A stretch of 64,000 nt of DNA, from NCBI GenBank assembly GCA_024349765.1, contig AP026074.1, positions 1-64,000 on the forward strand. The letters are read 5' to 3'. The translations under genes and the position numbers were made by a program. The notes beneath the pieces are model-generated. The model did not search any database, was not told where the DNA came from, and saw only the letters and a program-made list of their open reading frames with translations. This DNA comes from Streptomyces nigrescens (GTDB taxonomy: Bacteria > Actinomycetota > Actinomycetes > Streptomycetales > Streptomycetaceae). Each line of letters begins with the position of its first letter. Position 1 is the first letter of the stretch. This document shows, one piece after another, positions 40,578-52,358 of this stretch.

Positions 40578-41237
40578 TCAGGCGATGGCGCTCATGCGGG
40601 CGAAGACGACGACGTTGCCGAGGTATTCGTGGCGGGCCCGGTCGTAACCGCCGCCGCAGGTGAGGACGCGGAGTTCGGGCCGTGCGGAGGCGCCGTAGAC
40701 CTTTTCGTCCGGGAAGTCGGTGCCGCTGAAGACCTCCACGGCGTACACCGTGAAGACCGCGGTGCGACCGTCCTTGCGGACCACGCGGATGGTGTCGCCC
40801 TGCTTCAACGCACCGAGCGAGTAGAAGACCGCGGGCCCGGTCTTGGTGTCCACGTGACCGGTGATCAAGGCGGTTCCCGTGTCACCGGGCGTCACGCCGT
40901 CCTTGTACCAGCCGGCCAGGTTGCGGTCGGTGGGAGGCGGGACGTCGAGGCGCCGGTCGCGGTCCAGTCCGAGCCTCATCAACGGTGCGTCCACGCCGGT
41001 GCGCGGGATCCGCACGCGCAACGGCTCCGACTCCGGAAGCGGCGAGGGCCCTGGGCGGCTCCCGGCTTCGGCGTCCGGTTGCCGGGGCAGCGATTCGGCG
41101 CGCGGGGGCTGGGGTGGTGGGGCGGAGCGATGGCTGTGCCATCCCCACACCAGGCAGGCGATGCCGGCGACGGCCAGGAAGAGGGACACGACGCGGGCGG
41201 TGCGCGGGGGGAGGGACGCAGGCGAGAGGCGTATCAC
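40578..41237 (-). CDS. Class F sortase
   Basis: A 219-residue transpeptidase that attaches proteins to the cell wall. An N-terminal membrane anchor (~13-32) is followed by a Pro-rich linker (~35-75) and the catalytic beta-barrel. Catalytic His lies in ALITGHVDTKTG, Cys in LRVLTCGGGY, and Arg shortly after in YDRARHEYLGN. GTG 41237 follows GGAAAG seven bases upstream; the start region is tandemly duplicated. The adjacent upstream gene encodes a protein with a sorting-type C-terminus, its probable substrate. Confidence 0.88.
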   Translation of the reverse strand: MIRLSPASLPPRTARVVSLFLAVAGIACLVWGWHSHRSAPPPQPPRAESLPRQPDAEAGSRPGPSPLPESEPLRVRIPRTGVDAPLMRLGLDRDRRLDVPPPTDRNLAGWYKDGVTPGDTGTALITGHVDTKTGPAVFYSLGALKQGDTIRVVRKDGRTAVFTVYAVEVFSGTDFPDEKVYGASARPELRVLTCGGGYDRARHEYLGNVVVFARMSAIA

Positions 41238-41265
41238 GAGATGTCTTTCCAGAGATGTCTTTCCA
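41238..41265. repeat. Tandem 14-bp repeat duplicating a ribosome-binding site
   Basis: GAGATGTCTTTCCA occurs twice in a row directly before the sortase start. On the coding strand each copy carries GGAAAG, so two candidate Shine-Dalgarno sites are stacked. Only the proximal one is correctly spaced. Confidence 0.8.
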
Positions 41266-41388
41266 GAGACGTGCGGGAGATGACTGGCGCGGTGGGGTGG
41301 GACGGGCGGAGCCCTGCCCCCCCGCTGCCGGTAGCGGGTGCCACGGACAGGCGGTGGGGGCAGAGCTCCTGTGACCCGAGCATCGGGG

Positions 41389-41868
41389 TCAGCCGAGCTC
41401 CTCATCGTCACGGCGGCGCAGCAGCCACACCCCGGCCGCCCCCGAGATCAGTGCCGCGGACGACGTGAGGGCCAGGTCCGACGGACCCGACGGGGCACTC
41501 ATGGCCCCGGCGCCGGCCTTCACCTTGCCGTGCGGCATGGCCTTCGGCATGGACTTCGGCATGGCCTTGGGGCGGGGCTTGGCGGGCTTGGACTTCCCGC
41601 AGGTCCGGTCCGCCATGGAGGACGCGTCGTTCCACTTCATCTTGAGCCTGCCCAGGTGGTCGCGCTGCGACCGGTCCGGGTGTCCGCCCTGGTTGGTGAG
41701 GTCCCTGAGCTCCCTGTCGTAGGAGTCGTACGAGGACTTGGCCTTCTTGGCCGCGGACATCGCGCCGGAGCACGAGCCCTTGGCCGTCTCGGCATGTACG
41801 GCCGGGCTGCTCAGGGCCAGCGCACCGCCGACGACCACGACACCGCAGAAAGCGGATATGGAACGCAT
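41389..41868 (-). CDS. Surface protein with sortase-like C-terminal anchor
   Basis: A 159-residue secreted protein. The signal peptide (~1-26) ends at VHA|ETA. A helical charged region contains two Cys (KGSCSGAM, DRTCGKSK) that may form a disulfide, followed by repeats of PKAMPKSMPKAMPHGK. The C-terminus has a hydrophobic helix (~LALTSSAALISGAAGVWLL) and RRRDDEE, the layout of a sorting signal, but no LPXTG; SAPSGPSD precedes the helix. ATG 41868 follows GGAGG. It sits just upstream of the class F sortase. Confidence 0.8.
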   Translation of the reverse strand: MRSISAFCGVVVVGGALALSSPAVHAETAKGSCSGAMSAAKKAKSSYDSYDRELRDLTNQGGHPDRSQRDHLGRLKMKWNDASSMADRTCGKSKPAKPRPKAMPKSMPKAMPHGKVKAGAGAMSAPSGPSDLALTSSAALISGAAGVWLLRRRDDEELG

Positions 41869-42155
41869 GAGTTCCTCCAAGAGGGATGAGACTGCGGGAG
41901 GGCGTTCTCCCACCTTCAGGACATGCGTTCTCCCTTCCGCCCGCCAGTTGGCCGAAGTGTGAACCGGGCCCGTGCGGAAGGCCGCGCCGAGGAGCCTGCG
42001 CGGCGGTGCCTGCGGTGACCGGGACACGGGGTGAGCAGGGGATATCCCGTGACTGAGGGGAGCGGGGAGACCCCGGGCGGGATCGTGCGTACTGGCGGGT
42101 TGCCGCCCGTCCACGTGTCACCCGCATGGCCCTGCGAGGCCCGGGGGCGGACCGG

Positions 42156-42845
42156 TCAGATCGCCATCGCCTCCTGGATCCAGCGGTTCACCCGGTACGG
42201 CAGCCACCACAGGAACGGCCCGGTGCGGCTGACCAGTCGTTCGGCCAGGAAGTCGGCGGCGATGGCTTCCGGGACCGCGGACGACGGCGCGCCGTAGGAC
42301 AGCCGGGCGATCGCCTCGCGGTAGGCGGGCTCGTCGGCGGTGAAACGGCGCAGGTCGCCCCACCGGCGGTCGCGGATCTGCACGAAACCGGGGCCCTGCC
42401 GCCACAGGCACTTGCAGAGGTAGTGCTCGTTGCGCCATTGCGTCAGCGCGGCGTCGGCATCGGCCGGCCCGGTCAGGGCCGTGGGCGGTTGGAGATGACT
42501 GAGGTCACGCCAGGCGTCGTCGCCGGGGCCGGCGGGCAGCCGCAGGCGCCACTGGACGAGTACGGCATGCGCCGTGAGGTCGCGGATCAGGCACAGCCGG
42601 CGGACGGCGTGCGCCGCGGCGTCGGGGGAATCCACCGTCGTCAGGTCGATCTCGTCGGGGAACTGCACGCGGCGGGCGCCGAGTTCCCACAACTGGGCGG
42701 CCTGTTCGTCGGCCGGGCCGGTCAGGTCGAGCCGGCCCAGGCTCATGCCGGGCAGGGTGCACGCCTGTGCGTCGTAGTCGCGCCAGACGTGCAGCGTCAG
42801 CGGTCGGGGTGCGGAGTGGGTGGCGGGGGTGAGGACGGGGGGCAT
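42156..42845 (-). CDS. DUF5825-like RiPP accessory protein
   Basis: A 229-residue soluble protein. It resembles the DUF5825 proteins that accompany B12-dependent radical SAM RiPP enzymes in actinomycetes (family assignment from memory, moderate confidence). Seen: LTLHVWRDYDAQACTLPGMSLGRL at the start, HYLCKCLWRQGPGFVQIRDRR, and a C-terminal amphipathic stretch. It is the last gene of the RiPP unit, 88 bp after the radical SAM gene. It may act as a partner or leader-binding protein. ATG 42845 follows AGGAGA. Confidence 0.7.
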   Translation of the reverse strand: MPPVLTPATHSAPRPLTLHVWRDYDAQACTLPGMSLGRLDLTGPADEQAAQLWELGARRVQFPDEIDLTTVDSPDAAAHAVRRLCLIRDLTAHAVLVQWRLRLPAGPGDDAWRDLSHLQPPTALTGPADADAALTQWRNEHYLCKCLWRQGPGFVQIRDRRWGDLRRFTADEPAYREAIARLSYGAPSSAVPEAIAADFLAERLVSRTGPFLWWLPYRVNRWIQEAMAI

Positions 42846-42933
42846 GCGGTCTCCTGGGAAGTGCGAAGTGCTCGTCGGGGAGCGGAGGGTGGCGGCTCAG
42901 GCTCGGACACCGGATCAGGCCCGGGCTTCGGGC

Positions 42934-44865
42934 TCAGGCCCGGGCGATGGCGGGAGCCGCCGCGCCGGACGGCGGCCGCTCGGTGGCTTCCCCCTGGCTG
43001 TGCCGCATGAAGTCGAGACGCAGCAGGTCCTCGTTGACCGCGGCCGGTGCGAGGTGGACGTACTGGCCGCCGTCGGTGAAGACCAGTCCGAGCGTCACCC
43101 AGTGCTGGAGGAGGGCGTGCACCGTGGCGGCGTCGATGGTGTGCTCGGGCAGGCGCGCGGCGAGCTTGCGGGCCAGCGCGGCGGGCGCGTGCGGCTGGTC
43201 GAGGAGCCGGAACGCCTCGGTCTCGACCGGGTGGGTGAGTTCCCGCGTGCCCCAGTCGAAGGCGTGCCGGCGGCTGACGAGCACGATCCGGTCGCCGAGG
43301 TCGGCATGGGTGAGTCTGCTGTCCGTGTGGCGCTTCTTCCAGGCGCCCAGCGCCTCGTTGAGGGCGGTGACGGTGGGCTCGCCGATGCCGCGTTCCGGGG
43401 CCTCGAAGACGTAGGCGAGATCGAGCAGTTCGCTCTCGGGCAGGTCGTAGGTGAAGCGGTAGTGCTCCTCGGGGCGCAGCCCGGTGAAGCCGAGTTCGGG
43501 CCGGTTGAAGTACGGGCTGAAGCGCTCGATGGCGATCCGCGCGGACAGGTCCACCGGCGGGTTGAGGTGTTCCAGGGCCGGTATCTGGGCGATGACCGGC
43601 TCGTAGTCGGCGGCGGTCTCGCCGGGGAAGCCGTGCAGGTAGTTCCAGGAGACGGAGAGCCCGGTCTCGGCCCCGTCGCGGAGCATGCGGACGTTCTGGC
43701 AGCCGCTGACGCCCTTGTCCATCAGGTCGAGCACCCGGCTGTTCAGGCTCTCGATGCCCGGCTGCACGTAGATCATGCCCGCGTCGGCGAGGGTGCGCAG
43801 CTGCGGGCGGCGCATATTGGCCTTGATCTCGATGTGCATCCGCAGGTCGTAGCCGCTGTCGATGATGCGGGGCAGGACGGTGCCGAGGTAGCCCATGTCG
43901 AGGATGTTGTCGACGACGTACATGTCGAGCACGCGGTGCCGGCGCGCCAGGTCCATGATCTCGGTGTAGAAGGTGTCCGGGCTCTTGCTGCGGAACTGCA
44001 TGAACGAGCCGTTCAGGCCGCAGAAGGTGCAGTGGTGCTTCTCACCCCACCAGCAGCCGCGCGCCCCTTCGACCACGAGCTTGGGCTCCACCCAGTTGCG
44101 GGCGACGGAGGAGGCCAGGCGCTCGAAGTAGCCGCTGTAGTCGGGCGGCAGGATGGCCGCGGGCGGCAACGGGCTGGTGCTCATCGGATTGGCGGTGCTC
44201 GTGCCGTCGGCGCCGCGGTGGCACAGCCCCGGCACGGCCGCCAGGTCCGTGCCCTCGTCGAGCGCGGTCAGCAGCTGGGGGAAGGCGGCCTCGCCCTCAC
44301 CGCGGACCACGAAGTCCAGGAAGGGGAAGTTGCGGTGCGCGGCGGCGCCCTGCTCGGCGTCGCAGTTGGCGCCGCCCATGACGGTCCGGATGTGCGGGGC
44401 GAGCCGTTTGACGTACTTGGCGGCGGCGAGCGCGGCGGTGTTCTGCTGGAACGTGGAGGTGAAGCCGACGACATCGGGCCCGGCGGCCACGATCCGCTCG
44501 GCGATCTCCTGCACGAACTCCGGTACCACACGGTGCAGTTGGTGCGACATGCGCAACCGTTCGGCCTTCAGCTTGCCGCGCATCGCGGCGCTGAATTCCG
44601 CCGTGCGCCACTCGGGATCGTCGTAGAGCGCGGACGAGAACACCCAGTCGCCGCACCCCATGAAGTACGAGGAGAGCGCGTAGAACTGGTAGTCGTCGCC
44701 GGTGAAGTCGGTGCGCCGGGTGATCCAGTCGGTGAACTCCAGGTTGGCGTGCAGGACGTCGGCGTGCCCCGTGGTGCGTTCGTCGACGCTGCGCCGGAGG
44801 ATGCCGAGCGCCAGGGACGGCAGATCGATCGGGGACCAGGGCATGTTGACCAGCAGGACGCGCAT
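42934..44865 (-). CDS. B12-dependent radical SAM RiPP methyltransferase
   Basis: A 643-residue enzyme of the RiPP maturation radical SAM family. The N-terminal ~200 residues form a cobalamin-binding-like Rossmann domain (MRVLLVNMPW, DVVGFTSTFQQN, VMGGANCDAEQG, FVVRGEGE). The radical SAM domain has C271-x7-C279-x2-C282 in GCWWGEKHHCTFCGLNG, the spacing of this family rather than Cx3Cx2C. A ~150-residue C-terminal domain probably holds the substrate-recognition fold. Known relatives put methyl groups on unactivated carbons of peptide residues. It follows the precursor gene and a strong hairpin. ATG 44865 follows GAGGAG. Confidence 0.88.
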   Translation of the reverse strand: MRVLLVNMPWSPIDLPSLALGILRRSVDERTTGHADVLHANLEFTDWITRRTDFTGDDYQFYALSSYFMGCGDWVFSSALYDDPEWRTAEFSAAMRGKLKAERLRMSHQLHRVVPEFVQEIAERIVAAGPDVVGFTSTFQQNTAALAAAKYVKRLAPHIRTVMGGANCDAEQGAAAHRNFPFLDFVVRGEGEAAFPQLLTALDEGTDLAAVPGLCHRGADGTSTANPMSTSPLPPAAILPPDYSGYFERLASSVARNWVEPKLVVEGARGCWWGEKHHCTFCGLNGSFMQFRSKSPDTFYTEIMDLARRHRVLDMYVVDNILDMGYLGTVLPRIIDSGYDLRMHIEIKANMRRPQLRTLADAGMIYVQPGIESLNSRVLDLMDKGVSGCQNVRMLRDGAETGLSVSWNYLHGFPGETAADYEPVIAQIPALEHLNPPVDLSARIAIERFSPYFNRPELGFTGLRPEEHYRFTYDLPESELLDLAYVFEAPERGIGEPTVTALNEALGAWKKRHTDSRLTHADLGDRIVLVSRRHAFDWGTRELTHPVETEAFRLLDQPHAPAALARKLAARLPEHTIDAATVHALLQHWVTLGLVFTDGGQYVHLAPAAVNEDLLRLDFMRHSQGEATERPPSGAAAPAIARA

Positions 44866-44939
44866 GTCGGCTCCTCGTGGGTGGTGACGGGGACGTGAGG
44901 TGGCCGGCGGACGCGAGCGGGCCGGCGGGGTGAGGTGGG

Positions 44940-44972
44940 CCGGCCGGCCCGGTGGTGTACCGGGCCGGCCGG
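44940..44972. terminator. Strong hairpin after the precursor gene
   Basis: CCGGCCGGCCCGGT and ACCGGGCCGGCCGG are perfect 14-bp arms around GGTGT, starting five bases after the precursor stop. Placed between precursor and enzyme genes, it probably terminates most transcripts, so the peptide is made in excess over the modifying enzymes. Confidence 0.85.
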
Positions 44973-44977
44973 TGAGG

Positions 44978-45097
44978 TCACTCCTCCTCGGTGTCTTCCG
45001 CGGTGCGGAACGGGACGGTCACCGTGATGCCGATGCCGGGCTTGCGGTTCTCCTCGTCGCCCGCGAGCGGGTCGTTGTGGATGATGTCCTTCTGCAT
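44978..45097 (-). CDS. RiPP precursor peptide, 39 aa
   Basis: A short gene with AGGAGA seven bases before the ATG. The N-terminal part MQKDIIHNDPLAGDEENRK is charged and leader-like. It is followed by PGIGITVTVPF, a run of beta-branched and hydrophobic residues, and an acidic tail RTAEDTEEE. No Cys or Ser is present, so it is not a lanthipeptide or thiopeptide; the neighbouring B12 radical SAM enzyme suggests C-methylation of the Ile/Val/Thr/Pro/Phe stretch. Which part is kept after cleavage is uncertain because the acidic tail may also be removed. It lies between an S9 peptidase and the radical SAM gene. Confidence 0.85.
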   Translation of the reverse strand: MQKDIIHNDPLAGDEENRKPGIGITVTVPFRTAEDTEEE

Positions 45098-45112
45098 GAC
45101 TGCATCTCCTTG

Positions 45113-46996
45113 TCAGTGAACGGAGTTCGGATCGTGCGATCCGGGGGCACCGGATGGGCCGGTGCTCCCGGACACCCCGCTCTCGGGGAAGCGGGGAGCT
45201 TGGTGGGCCGCCGGGGCCGGGCGCAGGTGCCGGTCGAGGAAGCCCAGGGCGCGTCGCAGGACGGCCATGTGGTCGGCGCCGGTGTATCCGTCGTGTCCGG
45301 TCGCCAGCCACATCGACTCGTGTGCCACGCCGGCCGCCCGCAGCGCGGTGAGGTAGCCGCGTACCTGGCCGGGCGGGCACTTGGCGTCGAGGCTCGCGGC
45401 GACCACCAGCAGCGGGGCGCGGACGTCGGCGGCGTAGTGGAGCGGCGAACTGCGCCGGTAGCGGTCGGGGACGGTCTCCGGGGTGCCGCCGAACAGCCGC
45501 TCGTCCAGGGCGCGCAGCGCGGGCGTGCCGGCACGGTAGGCCGCCGCGCAGTCGGCGACCGGTTTGACGGCGACGCCCGCCTGCCACAGGCCGGGCCGGG
45601 TGCCGAGCGCCAGCAGGGTCAGATAGCCGCCCCAGGAGCTGCCCCACAGACCGAGGGCGTCCTCGCGCGCCAGGCCGCGGCGCAGCAGATCGGCACGGAC
45701 CGCGACCAGGTCGGCGACCTGGGCGAGCCCGACGCCCTCGGCGTACGCGGTGCGCCAGCGCGGCCCGTAGCCGGTGGAGCCGCGGTAGTTGACCCGGGCG
45801 ACCGCGAACCCGGAGGCGACCAGCGAGTGCACCTGCGGGTCGTAGGCGTCGCGGTCGTGGTCGGCGGGACCGCCGTGCACGAGGAAGACCAGCGGGGGCC
45901 GCGGGCCGGGTGCCGGGGCCGGTTGGCTCAGCAGGGTGTGCACCGGTCCGTCCGGGCCGGGCGTCCACAGGTCGCGGTGCCGGCCGGGAACGGGCGCGGG
46001 CAGGCCGCCGAGCGCGGGCAGCCGGGTGCCGGCGGTGGAGCGGAGCTGCGGGGGAGTGGTGGTGTCGGTCCAGAGGTAGTGCACGTCGTCGCCCGGGTGC
46101 GGGGCGGCGTCCAGCAGTGTGCCGGGTGGCGTGCGGACCGTGGTGAGGGTGCACCGGTCGAGGTCGGCGGTGGCGAGGGTGGAACGGCCGCGTCGGTCCT
46201 GCCGGACGAGGACCCGGCGCCCCGCGGGGTACCAGCGCGCCGTGATCTCGGTGTCGAAGCGGCACCAGTCGTGGCTCCGCAGTCCGCCGCCGGGCGTCCA
46301 ACTGGCCAGCAGATAGCGCTCGTCGGCCTCCTGGACGAGCAGCAGCTCGCCGTCCACCGCCGCCCCCGGGGCGAAGCCGAGCGCCCACAGCCGCCCGCGC
46401 CGTCCGGACAGTCGGGCGACCTCCGCGACCTCCCCGTCGGAACAGCCCACGAGGGTGACCGCACGACCGGAACCCGCCGGCCCCGACACCGCCAGCAGCC
46501 GGCCCGTCGGCGAGATGCCCGTGAGCAGCGCGGGGCCCTCGACGGTCAGCACCGGACGGCCCGGTCCGCCCGCGGTGCCGAGGTGCACCGTCGTACGGCG
46601 GCCGTCCCCCAGGCCGATCGCCGCCGTCCCGGTGTCGCTGACCGCGAGGCCGTGCGGCAGTCCCGGCCGGAGTCCGGCCAGTCCCGGGGCGGCCGGACCG
46701 CCGTCGAAGTCCTGGAAGTGCCACCGTCCCCGGCCGCTCCGGTCCTCCGCGAACCACCACACCCGGGCGTCCGCGTCGACCGCGCAGTGCAGCGTCCCGT
46801 CGCGGCTGTCGGTGACCCGGCGCGTGGTGCCCGTACGGGCGTCCCAGGTGAAGATCTCGCACCGGCCGTCGGCGTCCGCGGCGAGTGCCATCCGCGCCGG
46901 GTCGCGCGGGCAGACCTCGGGGAGCGCCGGCCGGTAGACCTGGAAGCCCGTGCCGGGGGCCTGGAGCGGACGGGCGTGTGCCGCGGACGCGTTCAT
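45113..46996 (-). CDS. S9 prolyl-oligopeptidase-family peptidase
   Basis: A 627-residue serine peptidase. The N-terminal ~360 residues form a beta-propeller that limits substrates to short peptides. The C-terminal alpha/beta hydrolase domain has nucleophile GLWGSSWGGYLTLL, Asp in VAASLDAKCPPGQ and His in ATGHDGYTGADH. There is no signal peptide, so it is cytoplasmic. Its position, 15 bp upstream of the precursor, marks it as the likely leader or follower peptidase; cleavage near the Pro residues in PGIG or VPF is plausible. ATG 46996 overlaps the exporter stop by four bases. Confidence 0.88.
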   Translation of the reverse strand: MNASAAHARPLQAPGTGFQVYRPALPEVCPRDPARMALAADADGRCEIFTWDARTGTTRRVTDSRDGTLHCAVDADARVWWFAEDRSGRGRWHFQDFDGGPAAPGLAGLRPGLPHGLAVSDTGTAAIGLGDGRRTTVHLGTAGGPGRPVLTVEGPALLTGISPTGRLLAVSGPAGSGRAVTLVGCSDGEVAEVARLSGRRGRLWALGFAPGAAVDGELLLVQEADERYLLASWTPGGGLRSHDWCRFDTEITARWYPAGRRVLVRQDRRGRSTLATADLDRCTLTTVRTPPGTLLDAAPHPGDDVHYLWTDTTTPPQLRSTAGTRLPALGGLPAPVPGRHRDLWTPGPDGPVHTLLSQPAPAPGPRPPLVFLVHGGPADHDRDAYDPQVHSLVASGFAVARVNYRGSTGYGPRWRTAYAEGVGLAQVADLVAVRADLLRRGLAREDALGLWGSSWGGYLTLLALGTRPGLWQAGVAVKPVADCAAAYRAGTPALRALDERLFGGTPETVPDRYRRSSPLHYAADVRAPLLVVAASLDAKCPPGQVRGYLTALRAAGVAHESMWLATGHDGYTGADHMAVLRRALGFLDRHLRPAPAAHQAPRFPESGVSGSTGPSGAPGSHDPNSVH

Positions 46997-48348
46997 GCCC
47001 GCTCCTTCGGGGTGGTGGGGGATTCCTGCGGGCCGGGGCGGGACGCCGCCGCGTCGCGACGGGACGCCGGGGAGCAGGTCGCGTACAGCGCAGGTCCGGC
47101 CAGCACCACGGCGCAGCCCAGGCACATCGCGACGGTCCCGGCCTGATCGGTGACCAGCCCGGCGACCGCCGGCGCCACGGCCGCGGCCGCGCCCGACGCG
47201 GTGGCCAGCACGGTCCCGGTACGGGCCTGCAGTTCGGGCGGGACGACCTGGAGGACCCGGGCCTGGAGTGCCACGGTGGCGAGCGGGGTCAGCGCGCACA
47301 GCAGACCGAAGAGCAGGCCGAACTGCCAGGCGTCGCGGGCCACCGCCAGGGCCGCGGCGGGCGGTACCAGCAGCCAGGACACCGTCCCCAGCACCTGTGT
47401 CGCGGAGCGCCGGCCGGCCAGGCGGGGCGCGGCGAGCGAACCGGCCAGACCGGCCGCCCCGGCCAGCGCGAGGACCAGACCCAGCGGAGCCGCGCCCCGG
47501 CCGTGGTCCTGCAGGGCGAACACCGCCGTGTAATACAGCGCGGCGAGCACGGCGTTGACGACCGCGGTCCATACCAGCGCCAGCCGGAGAAAGGGTTCCC
47601 GGCGCACCACGCCGAGCCCCGCCCCGGCCTCGGCGGCCAGCGCCCGCCAGGGCCGGGACGGTCCGCCGGCCGCCGGGCGTCCGGTGTGCCGCGGTGACAG
47701 GCCGGCCCGCATGGCCCCGATGCAGGCCGCGGCGACGACGTACGACACCGCGTCCGCGAGGAACGGCAGCCAGCGCCCGGCGTGGAAGAGCAGCCCGCCC
47801 AGCGCGGGCCCCAGGACCAGGGCGGCTCGTTCCCCCGCCTGTAATCGGGACAGGACGCGGCGGTGGTCGGCGGGGGCGCAGACCAGGGCGACGGTGCCGA
47901 GGGACGCCGTCTCGTAGCAGGCGGTCGCCGACCGTTCGACGAGCACGACGGCGAGGAGCACGGCCAGCGGAGCCGAGCCGGACCATGCCGCGACGGTGAC
48001 GACGGTCATCGAAGCGGCAGACACCACCGCGGAGCCCACCATGACACGCTTGCGTGCCCCGCGGTCGGCGGGAACGGCGGCGAGTGGGCCGAGCAGCAGG
48101 GTCGCTGCCGCGGAGAGCCCCGCGACGGCGCCGACCTCGGCGGGCGAGTGGCCCAGGCTCAGCAGCAACAACGGCAGGACGAGCCCGGACGCCTGGCTGC
48201 CCAGTGCGTCGGAGGTGCCGGCCCACCAGAAGAGCCGGATGTCGCGACGGGCGTACGTCGCACTGCCGGCGAGGGCGCCCGGCCGGGAGTCCCGAGGTAA
48301 GTCGTACGGCGCGTCGCCTGCCGAGGGCTCCGCCGGTCTTCGTTCCAT
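46993..48348 (-). CDS. MFS exporter of the RiPP locus
   Basis: A 451-residue transporter with about twelve helices and a central loop near 225-245. The loop after helix 2 is AVPADRGARKRVMVG. The first ~35 residues are charged and Pro-rich. ATG 48348 (MERRPAEP) is chosen; a start five codons upstream is possible. First gene of the RiPP unit, with stop overlapping the S9 peptidase start. It probably exports the mature peptide. It is divergent from rox. Confidence 0.85.
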   Translation of the reverse strand: MERRPAEPSAGDAPYDLPRDSRPGALAGSATYARRDIRLFWWAGTSDALGSQASGLVLPLLLLSLGHSPAEVGAVAGLSAAATLLLGPLAAVPADRGARKRVMVGSAVVSAASMTVVTVAAWSGSAPLAVLLAVVLVERSATACYETASLGTVALVCAPADHRRVLSRLQAGERAALVLGPALGGLLFHAGRWLPFLADAVSYVVAAACIGAMRAGLSPRHTGRPAAGGPSRPWRALAAEAGAGLGVVRREPFLRLALVWTAVVNAVLAALYYTAVFALQDHGRGAAPLGLVLALAGAAGLAGSLAAPRLAGRRSATQVLGTVSWLLVPPAAALAVARDAWQFGLLFGLLCALTPLATVALQARVLQVVPPELQARTGTVLATASGAAAAVAPAVAGLVTDQAGTVAMCLGCAVVLAGPALYATCSPASRRDAAASRPGPQESPTTPKERA

Positions 48349-50130
<1,782 letters not shown>

Positions 50131-50219: not shown

Positions 50220-52175
50220 TCAGGTGCGGTGCGCCTTGGCGGCGCAGGCGCCGGAAGCGCAGGCGGTGAGCCAGGCGTCGAAGTCGGCGTCGTAACGGGT
50301 GCCGATGGTGTCGTGGTAGACGGCGTAGCCGGCCGCGTAGTCACCGGTGCGGAAGTGGCCCAGCATGGTGGCGACGTCGTCCGGGTGCTTCTCGACCATG
50401 TAGCGCGCCGCGAGGTAGCCCCAGGGGTAGGTCCGGGTCACGTCGCTGTTGTCGTAGGTGCTCTCGAACAGCGTGCTCAGCTTGTAGGTGTGCTTCCCGG
50501 CCTCGCTGACCGCCTCGTCATCGGTGATTTTGCGGTAGCCGTACGAGACGTACTCGGCGAAGCCCTCGATCCACCAGACGTCCGGCACGGACGTCTGGTG
50601 GCCGAAGTCGCCCTTCATGTCGTCACGGGCGTCGATGTAGTGCGTGTACTCGTGGTTGAGGTTCCAGATCCGGGCCGGGAAACCGTTGTCGTCGCTCCTC
50701 TGGTACATGATGGACATGGGCTTGTTGTCGGGCTTCGTCGGATCCCCGATCATGGTGATGCCGCCGTTGTTGGTGTCGACGCCGAAGATGGCCCCGGCGT
50801 AGGTCTGGTAGTCGCTGCGACTGCCGAACACGACGAGCTGAACGGTCGATTCGTACTGGTTGGGTATCGGCCCGTCGTTCTTCACCAGGTCGTGGACGTA
50901 CGCGTCCTGGCTCAGGACACTGGCGCAGGTGGCCTCCAGCTCCTCGGCGGTCAGCGCCTGCGTCTTGATGGTGTGCGTGGCATCGCACTCATGGGTGACC
51001 GGCAGCGCCGCCTTGGTCAGCTGGTCGGAGAGGTCGCAGACGCCGAGGTAGGAGCAGTTGTCCTTGTCGTAGGCGTCTGCCTGGGACGCGACGGTGACCC
51101 ACAGGGGCGCCGTCGGGCCGGTGATCTTCGAGGCGTCCAGCAGGCCCTTCATGAGCGGCCGGACCTTGTCCCGGAGGGCCTGGTGCTCGACGTACCGCGC
51201 GACGTTCATCCCGGCGTTGGAGTCGAGGTAGGAGTTGGCGGTGCCCAGCAGGTCCAGGTGGCCGAGCGCGAACTTGTCGAGGGTGTCGATGATGCTCGGA
51301 TCGGCCGTGACCGCTTTGACGTAGTCGGGGTTCCAGTTTCCGCGCCACAGCGGGGTGTAGACGTTGTTGACGGCGGCCAGCATGCTGGGGATGTCGTTGT
51401 AGGAGCTGTTGTAGCCGCTGAGCAGCTGCTTGTAGGTGTTCAGGTAGCGGCCTTGCTCGTTGGCGCTGTCGGTGAGGATGACGACCTCACTCAGGACGTC
51501 GCCGTTGCCCGAAGTGACGTCCTTGGAATGCGAGTTGGCGAGGAACGCGTCCAGGCTTCCCTCGCTGGCCGTTGCCAGATTCGGGCCGTAGGCGCCGACG
51601 TCGTCCGGATGGTTGGACTGCACGTAGTAGCCGGCGCGCAGGAACAGCACGAGCTGCAGCACCTTGGTCGAGTTGTCACCGGGATAGGCCGTCGCCCCGC
51701 TCTTGAAGGCGTTGGCGACGGTGACCATCTGCTCCTCGCGGAAGACGTCGTGGGCATCGCTGCCGGTGATGCTGAACAGGGTGTTGACGCACTCCGTCGT
51801 CGAGGCCTGGACGAAGGCGACCAGGTCCGAGCCGGTGCGGCTGCCGAAGTCGCCCGGGCTGCAGGAGGCCCGGCCCGGCTTCGGGGCGTGGTGCCGTCCC
51901 GTGACGGTCGACGAAACGGCGGGCTTCTGCGCGCTGAGCGGGGGGAGTTGGGGGACGCGGAGGGGGCTGCGCTGTAACGCGGGCCGGTCGTTCGCGCCGA
52001 GGGTCGGACCGGTCGGCGGTACGGGGTGGGCGGTGGTGCTCGCGGACACGGCCTGGTCCGGGGCGGCCGGCGGGCGCGGTGCCGCCAGTGCCGGTGCGGT
52101 CACGAGGCCGGCGAGGGTGGCGCAGGCGGCCAGGGCACCGGTCACGCATCTGGGCAGGGGGAAGCGGTAGCGCAT
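50220..52175 (-). CDS. Secreted M9 collagenase-type metallopeptidase
   Basis: A 651-residue exported protease. A signal peptide (~1-31) and Pro-rich linker (~32-100) precede the activator domain (~105-380) and the peptidase domain. The zinc motif is LNHEYTHYIDARDDMKGDF (HExxH) with the third ligand in WWIEGFAEYVSYG. The usual C-terminal PKD and collagen-binding domains are absent; the protein ends about 110 residues after the zinc ligand. It may digest soluble or denatured collagen-like peptides. ATG 52175 follows GAAGGAG. Confidence 0.9.
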   Translation of the reverse strand: MRYRFPLPRCVTGALAACATLAGLVTAPALAAPRPPAAPDQAVSASTTAHPVPPTGPTLGANDRPALQRSPLRVPQLPPLSAQKPAVSSTVTGRHHAPKPGRASCSPGDFGSRTGSDLVAFVQASTTECVNTLFSITGSDAHDVFREEQMVTVANAFKSGATAYPGDNSTKVLQLVLFLRAGYYVQSNHPDDVGAYGPNLATASEGSLDAFLANSHSKDVTSGNGDVLSEVVILTDSANEQGRYLNTYKQLLSGYNSSYNDIPSMLAAVNNVYTPLWRGNWNPDYVKAVTADPSIIDTLDKFALGHLDLLGTANSYLDSNAGMNVARYVEHQALRDKVRPLMKGLLDASKITGPTAPLWVTVASQADAYDKDNCSYLGVCDLSDQLTKAALPVTHECDATHTIKTQALTAEELEATCASVLSQDAYVHDLVKNDGPIPNQYESTVQLVVFGSRSDYQTYAGAIFGVDTNNGGITMIGDPTKPDNKPMSIMYQRSDDNGFPARIWNLNHEYTHYIDARDDMKGDFGHQTSVPDVWWIEGFAEYVSYGYRKITDDEAVSEAGKHTYKLSTLFESTYDNSDVTRTYPWGYLAARYMVEKHPDDVATMLGHFRTGDYAAGYAVYHDTIGTRYDADFDAWLTACASGACAAKAHRT

Positions 52176-52358
52176 CCATGCTCCTTCGTGGGGGGTGAGA
52201 TACGCCTCGGAACGGGGCTGAGGCGTGGCTGGCACCTTCTCAGCGCACACCCGGCCGCGACAATACGGTGTGACATAGCACATGACACACCATCGCCATA
52301 ACCTTGGACCCACGGACCTCAGGAACCCCAGCGGCTCAACGGGACTTGGGCGGGCCGG

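Follow-up and report, generated by a model that had tools for sequence, protein, structure and literature searches.

Organization of the operon

Within a window of 64,000 nucleotides from Streptomyces nigrescens (positions 1 to 64,000 of contig AP026074.1, GenBank assembly GCA_024349765.1), we studied an operon of five genes on the minus strand (48363–42156), encoding in this order an exporter of the major facilitator superfamily (MFS), a prolyl oligopeptidase (POP), a 39-residue peptide, a B12-dependent radical S-adenosylmethionine (rSAM) enzyme and a DUF5825 protein (Table 1). The locus is very probably a clavusporin-type operon for a ribosomally synthesized and post-translationally modified peptide (RiPP), with a product that would be C-methylated, trimmed by the POP and exported. 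The ATG of the POP gene (46996) overlaps the stop codon of the exporter gene, only 15 nt separate the POP stop codon from the peptide gene, and a further 112 nt lie between the peptide gene and that of the rSAM enzyme. The host genome (9.3 Mb) held a single match to the rSAM family model TIGR03975 and a single match to DUF5825.

Table 1. Genes and RNA feature of the operon, with coordinates in the window.
Feature	Coordinates	Strand	Match or remark
MFS exporter	46993–48363	−	PF07690, 89.7 bits; start at GTG 48363 or in-frame ATG 48348
S9/prolyl-oligopeptidase (POP) serine peptidase	45113–46996	−	PF00326, 117.8 bits; likely leader peptidase, MpcP-like
39-residue precursor peptide	44978–45097	−	AGGAG upstream; homologues at related loci
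GC-rich hairpin, 14-bp perfect stem	44940–44972	−	between precursor and rSAM gene
B12-dependent rSAM enzyme (643 aa), TIGR03975 (rSAM_ocin_1), CX7CX2C	42934–44865	−	610.4 bits
DUF5825 protein (229 aa), likely rSAM partner	42156–42845	−	PF19142, 260.5 bits, far above the cut-off

The rSAM enzyme matched TIGR03975 (610.4 bits, cut-off 281.85) over model positions 1–605 of 606. Its CX7CX2C motif was exact (C271, C279 and C282) and unchanged in all 16 enzymes aligned, a set that leaves out L046 and L055, for which the stretches taken ran through a stop. For the POP, the likely catalytic triad of Ser454, Asp537 and His568, as picked by motif, was kept in 85, 84 and 83 of 85 sequences, respectively, with gaps accounting for the remainder; these 85 came from a total of 97, after removal of sequences that were interrupted by a stop in the matched part or were no longer than 450 residues. 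The predicted model of the DUF5825 protein was confident (pLDDT 92.4). Foldseek found nothing in the PDB at E ≤ 0.001, and none of the 50 weak matches listed is named as a protein with a RiPP recognition element (RRE), the winged-helix fold of PqqD-like proteins. Weak Foldseek matches to aldolase and NifB folds, with TM scores of 0.18–0.23, were not used.

A first-pass annotation, made from the sequence alone, had proposed a RiPP locus built around a B12-dependent rSAM enzyme, with an exporter, an S9 peptidase, a precursor and a DUF5825-like protein forming a unit. All five genes were indeed present with matching families, and the RiPP assignment gained support from TIGR03975, which is a C-methyltransferase family. 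The CX7CX2C motif was likewise as described, and the precursor (MQKDIIHNDPLAGDEENRKPGIGITVTVPFRTAEDTEEE) contains no Cys and no Ser, as had been stated. The claim that no YcaO is encoded also held among the ten window proteins that we scanned, as neither the five proteins of the operon nor five neighbours matched YcaO.

Conservation of the operon in other genomes

Of 246 Streptomyces genomes, 59 contained DUF5825, 58 of them with a match above the family cut-off. It was also present in 16 of 394 class-wide genomes, comprising the own genome, ten more of the genus and five of other genera (four of the ten congeners were shared with the genus scan, and one of the five other-genus matches was below the cut-off). 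From the 63 places of the genus scan we took 60; the other three were the own genome, a stop-containing fragment and a match below the cut-off. An rSAM match accompanied DUF5825 at 58 of these 60 loci; it was lacking at L078 and at L061, whose contig stops beside the DUF5825 gene. Searching named genomes with the rSAM alignment and keeping the best 80 of at least 571 relatives added loci from Streptomyces (76), Micromonospora (three) and Streptantibioticus (one). Together with one locus of Streptomyces clavuligerus this gave a pooled set of 141 loci, with some genomes in both sets, and 139 of them had an rSAM match.

The rSAM, POP and DUF5825 genes occurred together at 110 loci, here called complete, and 101 of these also had an MFS match. 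In 107 of the 110, a precursor homologue was encoded upstream of the rSAM gene at a distance of at most 800 nt. When each distinct rSAM DNA was counted once, 125 loci remained, with 96 being complete; of these, 93 had the precursor and 89 the MFS match. A precursor profile, built from 69 unique precursors of 102 loci, was run against 37,340 six-frame segments from the window and the 141 loci and recovered the window peptide at E = 2.1e-26, although this value arises partly by construction because the profile includes an identical peptide from relatives. The profile matched at E < 0.01 in 114 of the 141 loci, and every such match, that in the window included, lay within 900 nt of the match to the rSAM enzyme.

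Plasmid pSCL4 of S. clavuligerus carries the same order of genes, MFS–POP–precursor–rSAM–DUF5825. Its rSAM enzyme had 83.8% identity to that of the window over 97% of the query, and its precursor (MQKDVIHNDPLAGDEENRKPSVGITITVPFRNAEDADED) has 31 of 39 residues in common with the window peptide, as counted by eye. This precursor is missing from the gene table of the pSCL4 record, which is known to be incomplete.

A conserved leader and an alternating core

The window precursor would be divided into a leader of residues 1–20 (MQKDIIHNDPLAGDEENRKP), a core from residue 21 (GIGITVTVPF) and an acidic tail. Complete loci provided 72 unique precursors, of which 53 share one register, defined by a selection that fixed M1, K3, D4, D/N9, P10 and P29 and restricted the choice at position 6. 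At positions outside these rules, Asn8, Leu11 and Arg18 were found in 53 of 53 in-register precursors and Pro20 in 51; Pro29 was also present in all 53, its position being itself a selection rule. The core followed a strict pattern, with Ile or Val at positions 22, 24, 26 and 28 in 212 of 212 cells, and Thr, Gly or Ser at positions 21, 23, 25 and 27 in 201 of 212. When distinct loci and the window were counted instead of unique precursors, the rule for the even positions was kept in 76 of 76 in-register peptides. Such an alternation of hydrophobic and small polar residues along a strand fits a surface-active peptide.

Ratios of nonsynonymous to synonymous differences (pN/pS), calculated from 70 unique DNA sequences as uncorrected proportions pooled over pairs, were 0.35 for the leader, 0.76 for the core and 0.83 for the tail; using unique peptides only, which inflates pN, the values were 0.44, 0.76 and 0.87. 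The low leader ratio, taken together with the Ile/Val rule, indicates that the leader is conserved as a sequence and the core as a pattern. The most conserved part was not PGIGITVTVP, a possibility that the first-pass annotation had put forward for checking, as the leader is tighter. The annotation's proposal of the Val/Ile/Thr-rich core as the likely target of C-methylation was supported. It had named a lack of conservation of the small gene beside homologous enzymes as one outcome that would refute its reading; the gene was kept beside them at all but three of the complete loci, and the reading was not refuted.

The precursors of Micromonospora (L181, L183 and L184) stop directly after a VTVTVTV-type core and have no acidic tail, which suggests that the tail is dispensable for modification. 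At L127, two differing precursor peptides are encoded in tandem ahead of one rSAM gene. Some rSAM/DUF5825 loci without a POP match (L177, L179 and L180; L074 and L075) encode other small peptides, with an MEK start, a DP near residue 9–10 and ends such as TGMRLIDIPIPAVRE or SVMVYVTKY, L075 having two of them; these MEK...DP peptides are a wider leader motif joined to different cores.

A hairpin following the precursor gene

The hairpin of the window begins 5 nt past the precursor stop codon, with a minimum free energy of −37.7 and a z-score of −3.7, and no T-run follows it there. We analyzed the corresponding stretch in 94 sequences (from the window plus 93 distinct complete loci), permitting G–U pairs in stems and deriving z-scores from mononucleotide shuffles. 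The z-score was below −1.5 in 84 of the 94, with a median of −3.7. Stems of at least 12 bp within 70 nt past the precursor stop codon were found in 75 of 94 real sequences versus 1 of 94 shuffled ones, with a single shuffle per sequence as control. In a 60-nt stretch, 74 of the 94 had stems of that length, and the 5′ arms came in 53 distinct versions, showing that the pairing was kept despite sequence change, while 13 of 94 had stems shorter than 10 bp. The hairpin probably sets an excess of precursor over the enzymes.

TTA codons in the first genes

Two TTA codons are found in the exporter gene of the window, at codons 22 and 174 as counted from the GTG. In counts made on tblastn-matched stretches instead of whole genes, TTA occurred in the exporter gene at 33 of 89 loci and in the POP gene at 6 of 96, with none in 96 rSAM genes and none in 96 DUF5825 genes; 38 of 96 complete loci had TTA in either the exporter or the POP gene. 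The background was 109 of 1214 long open reading frames (ORFs) of high GC content at third codon positions, a set that includes exporter genes and some spurious frames. A Fisher test gave p ~1e-14 while treating related loci as independent, and we relied on the raw counts. TTA codons are read by the bldA tRNA, and the distribution seen here would fit a bldA-dependent expression of the operon; they are found in antibiotic clusters too.

Neighbouring genes

Downstream of the operon, a sortase gene (PF04203) within 40578–42114 adjoins an ORF (41389–42114). The product of the latter looks secreted, has a hydrophobic C-terminal stretch with a basic end and gave no Pfam match. On the other side, a gene for an FAD aromatic hydroxylase (48676–50130, PF01494) adjoins one for an M9 collagenase-family peptidase (50220–52313, PF01752).

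Proposed pathway and alternative explanations

In the pathway that we propose, the conserved leader (MQKDIIHNDPL...) would be recognized by the DUF5825 protein, the rSAM enzyme or both, whereupon the B12-dependent rSAM enzyme together with the DUF5825 protein would methylate unactivated carbons in the core GIGITVTVPF, presumably in a leader-dependent manner and most likely at the Ile and Val positions of the alternation. The POP, a peptidase type with a reported role for clavusporins (PMC12951456), would then cleave after Pro20. The acidic tail could be trimmed either by the POP as well, after Pro29, or by general peptidases, and the MFS protein would finally export a small, hydrophobic, strand-like amphipathic peptide. 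In analogy to clavusporins, this product would probably serve aerial growth as a surface-active peptide.

A more far-reaching model, which we regard as possible but rather doubtful, would have the alternating core serve as a template that the rSAM/DUF5825 pair reads as an extended strand, with one face methylated at several successive i, i+2 positions. The family would then consist of tunable tert-alkyl, strand-like surfactants, with the GIGITVTVP(F) version made here, and production would be gated at two levels, by bldA through TTA codons in the genes at the head of the operon and by the hairpin setting the precursor excess.

Several observations weigh against the reading as a clavusporin-type operon. 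First, 19 of the 72 unique precursors failed the register selection; these have other cores, for example GVGVVVYFR or PIIVIIVSS, in which strict alternation is lost, and some lack Pro20 or Pro29, so that cleavage strictly after Pro is not general in the family. Three of the 110 complete loci had no motif peptide, with only a profile match at L124, a divergent peptide at L068 and nothing found at L110. Moreover, 27 loci had the rSAM gene but no POP match, with a motif peptide, of a more divergent kind, in only 6 of them, which makes the operon one branch of a wider family. Finally, S. clavuligerus is presumably the clavusporin producer and its peptide the published precursor, judging by the name.

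With the same chemistry, the product in this strain could be mainly an antibiotic or a signal instead of a surfactant for aerial growth, an alternative compatible with the pathway itself but one that we consider unlikely. The sortase, FAD hydroxylase and M9 peptidase genes nearby do not by themselves indicate development; however, the TTA codons in exporter or POP genes fit bldA dependence, even though antibiotic clusters share this trait, and clavusporins are reportedly C-methylated peptides with surface activity that aid the development of Streptomyces.

It is highly improbable that the rSAM enzyme performs chemistry other than methylation, such as the carbon–carbon cross-linking of ortho-tyrosines by PbsB. 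PMC12257519 does report PbsB as a B12-dependent rSAM enzyme that cross-links rather than methylates, but it assigns C-methylation to the DUF5825-paired enzyme type, and the score of the window enzyme for TIGR03975, a C-methyltransferase model, is far above the cut-off. PbsB-like cross-linking was rejected because the core has a single aromatic residue (F30) and no MNIO family match was found among the five operon proteins. Finally, there is next to no probability that the 39-residue frame arose by chance or encodes an unrelated regulatory peptide. Its counterpart is missing from the incomplete pSCL4 gene table, but the profile matches and the homologues at 107 of 110 complete loci led us to reject a chance ORF on conservation. 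The leader pN/pS of 0.35 and a G-rich string, resembling a ribosome-binding site, ahead of 92 of 95 precursor peptides (a raw count with no chance baseline) also speak against this rival.

Comparison with known systems

The analysis assigns a precursor that would otherwise be overlooked to a family characterized in recent work. The 72 unique natural precursors hint at the tolerance of the enzyme pair, with a tight leader, alternate Ile/Val residues and a variable acidic tail, and the set can be used for picking analogues to probe a methylation rule.

Among known systems, TIGR03975 is the family that the window enzyme spans at nearly full model length, although the family is broader, its loci without a POP match mostly having other small ORFs upstream. 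Bottromycin, to which the first-pass annotation had compared the precursor, would resemble the proposed product in chemistry only, through the C-methylation of Val-type peptide residues by a B12-dependent rSAM enzyme. Its precursor and partner protein are unlike those found here, and kinship was rejected because no YcaO was matched among the ten scanned proteins. The biphenomycin-like YHxYxY clusters, as reported in PMC12257519, likewise have a second B12-dependent rSAM enzyme with a DUF5825 protein, but also an MNIO and aromatic motifs, neither of which was found in the window operon.

The closest likeness is to the clavusporin system. The first-pass annotation knew of no characterized product from such an arrangement, but a homologous B12-dependent rSAM/DUF5825 pair is reported to C-methylate in clavusporin biosynthesis (PMC12257519) and MpcP to be a POP that removes the clavusporin leader (PMC12951456), so that both the pair and the peptidase are common to the two systems. 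The S. clavuligerus locus, taken as the clavusporin source, shares the five-gene order and a homologous 39-residue precursor, differing by three changes in the core (SVGITITVPF versus GIGITVTVPF), and orthology with the clavusporin operon is the best interpretation of the window operon. The clavusporin work of 2025 already covers this type of pathway, and the window operon is a further case of it, not a new kind of system; what this analysis adds are the Ile/Val pattern of the core, the hairpin after the precursor stop codon and the distribution of TTA codons.

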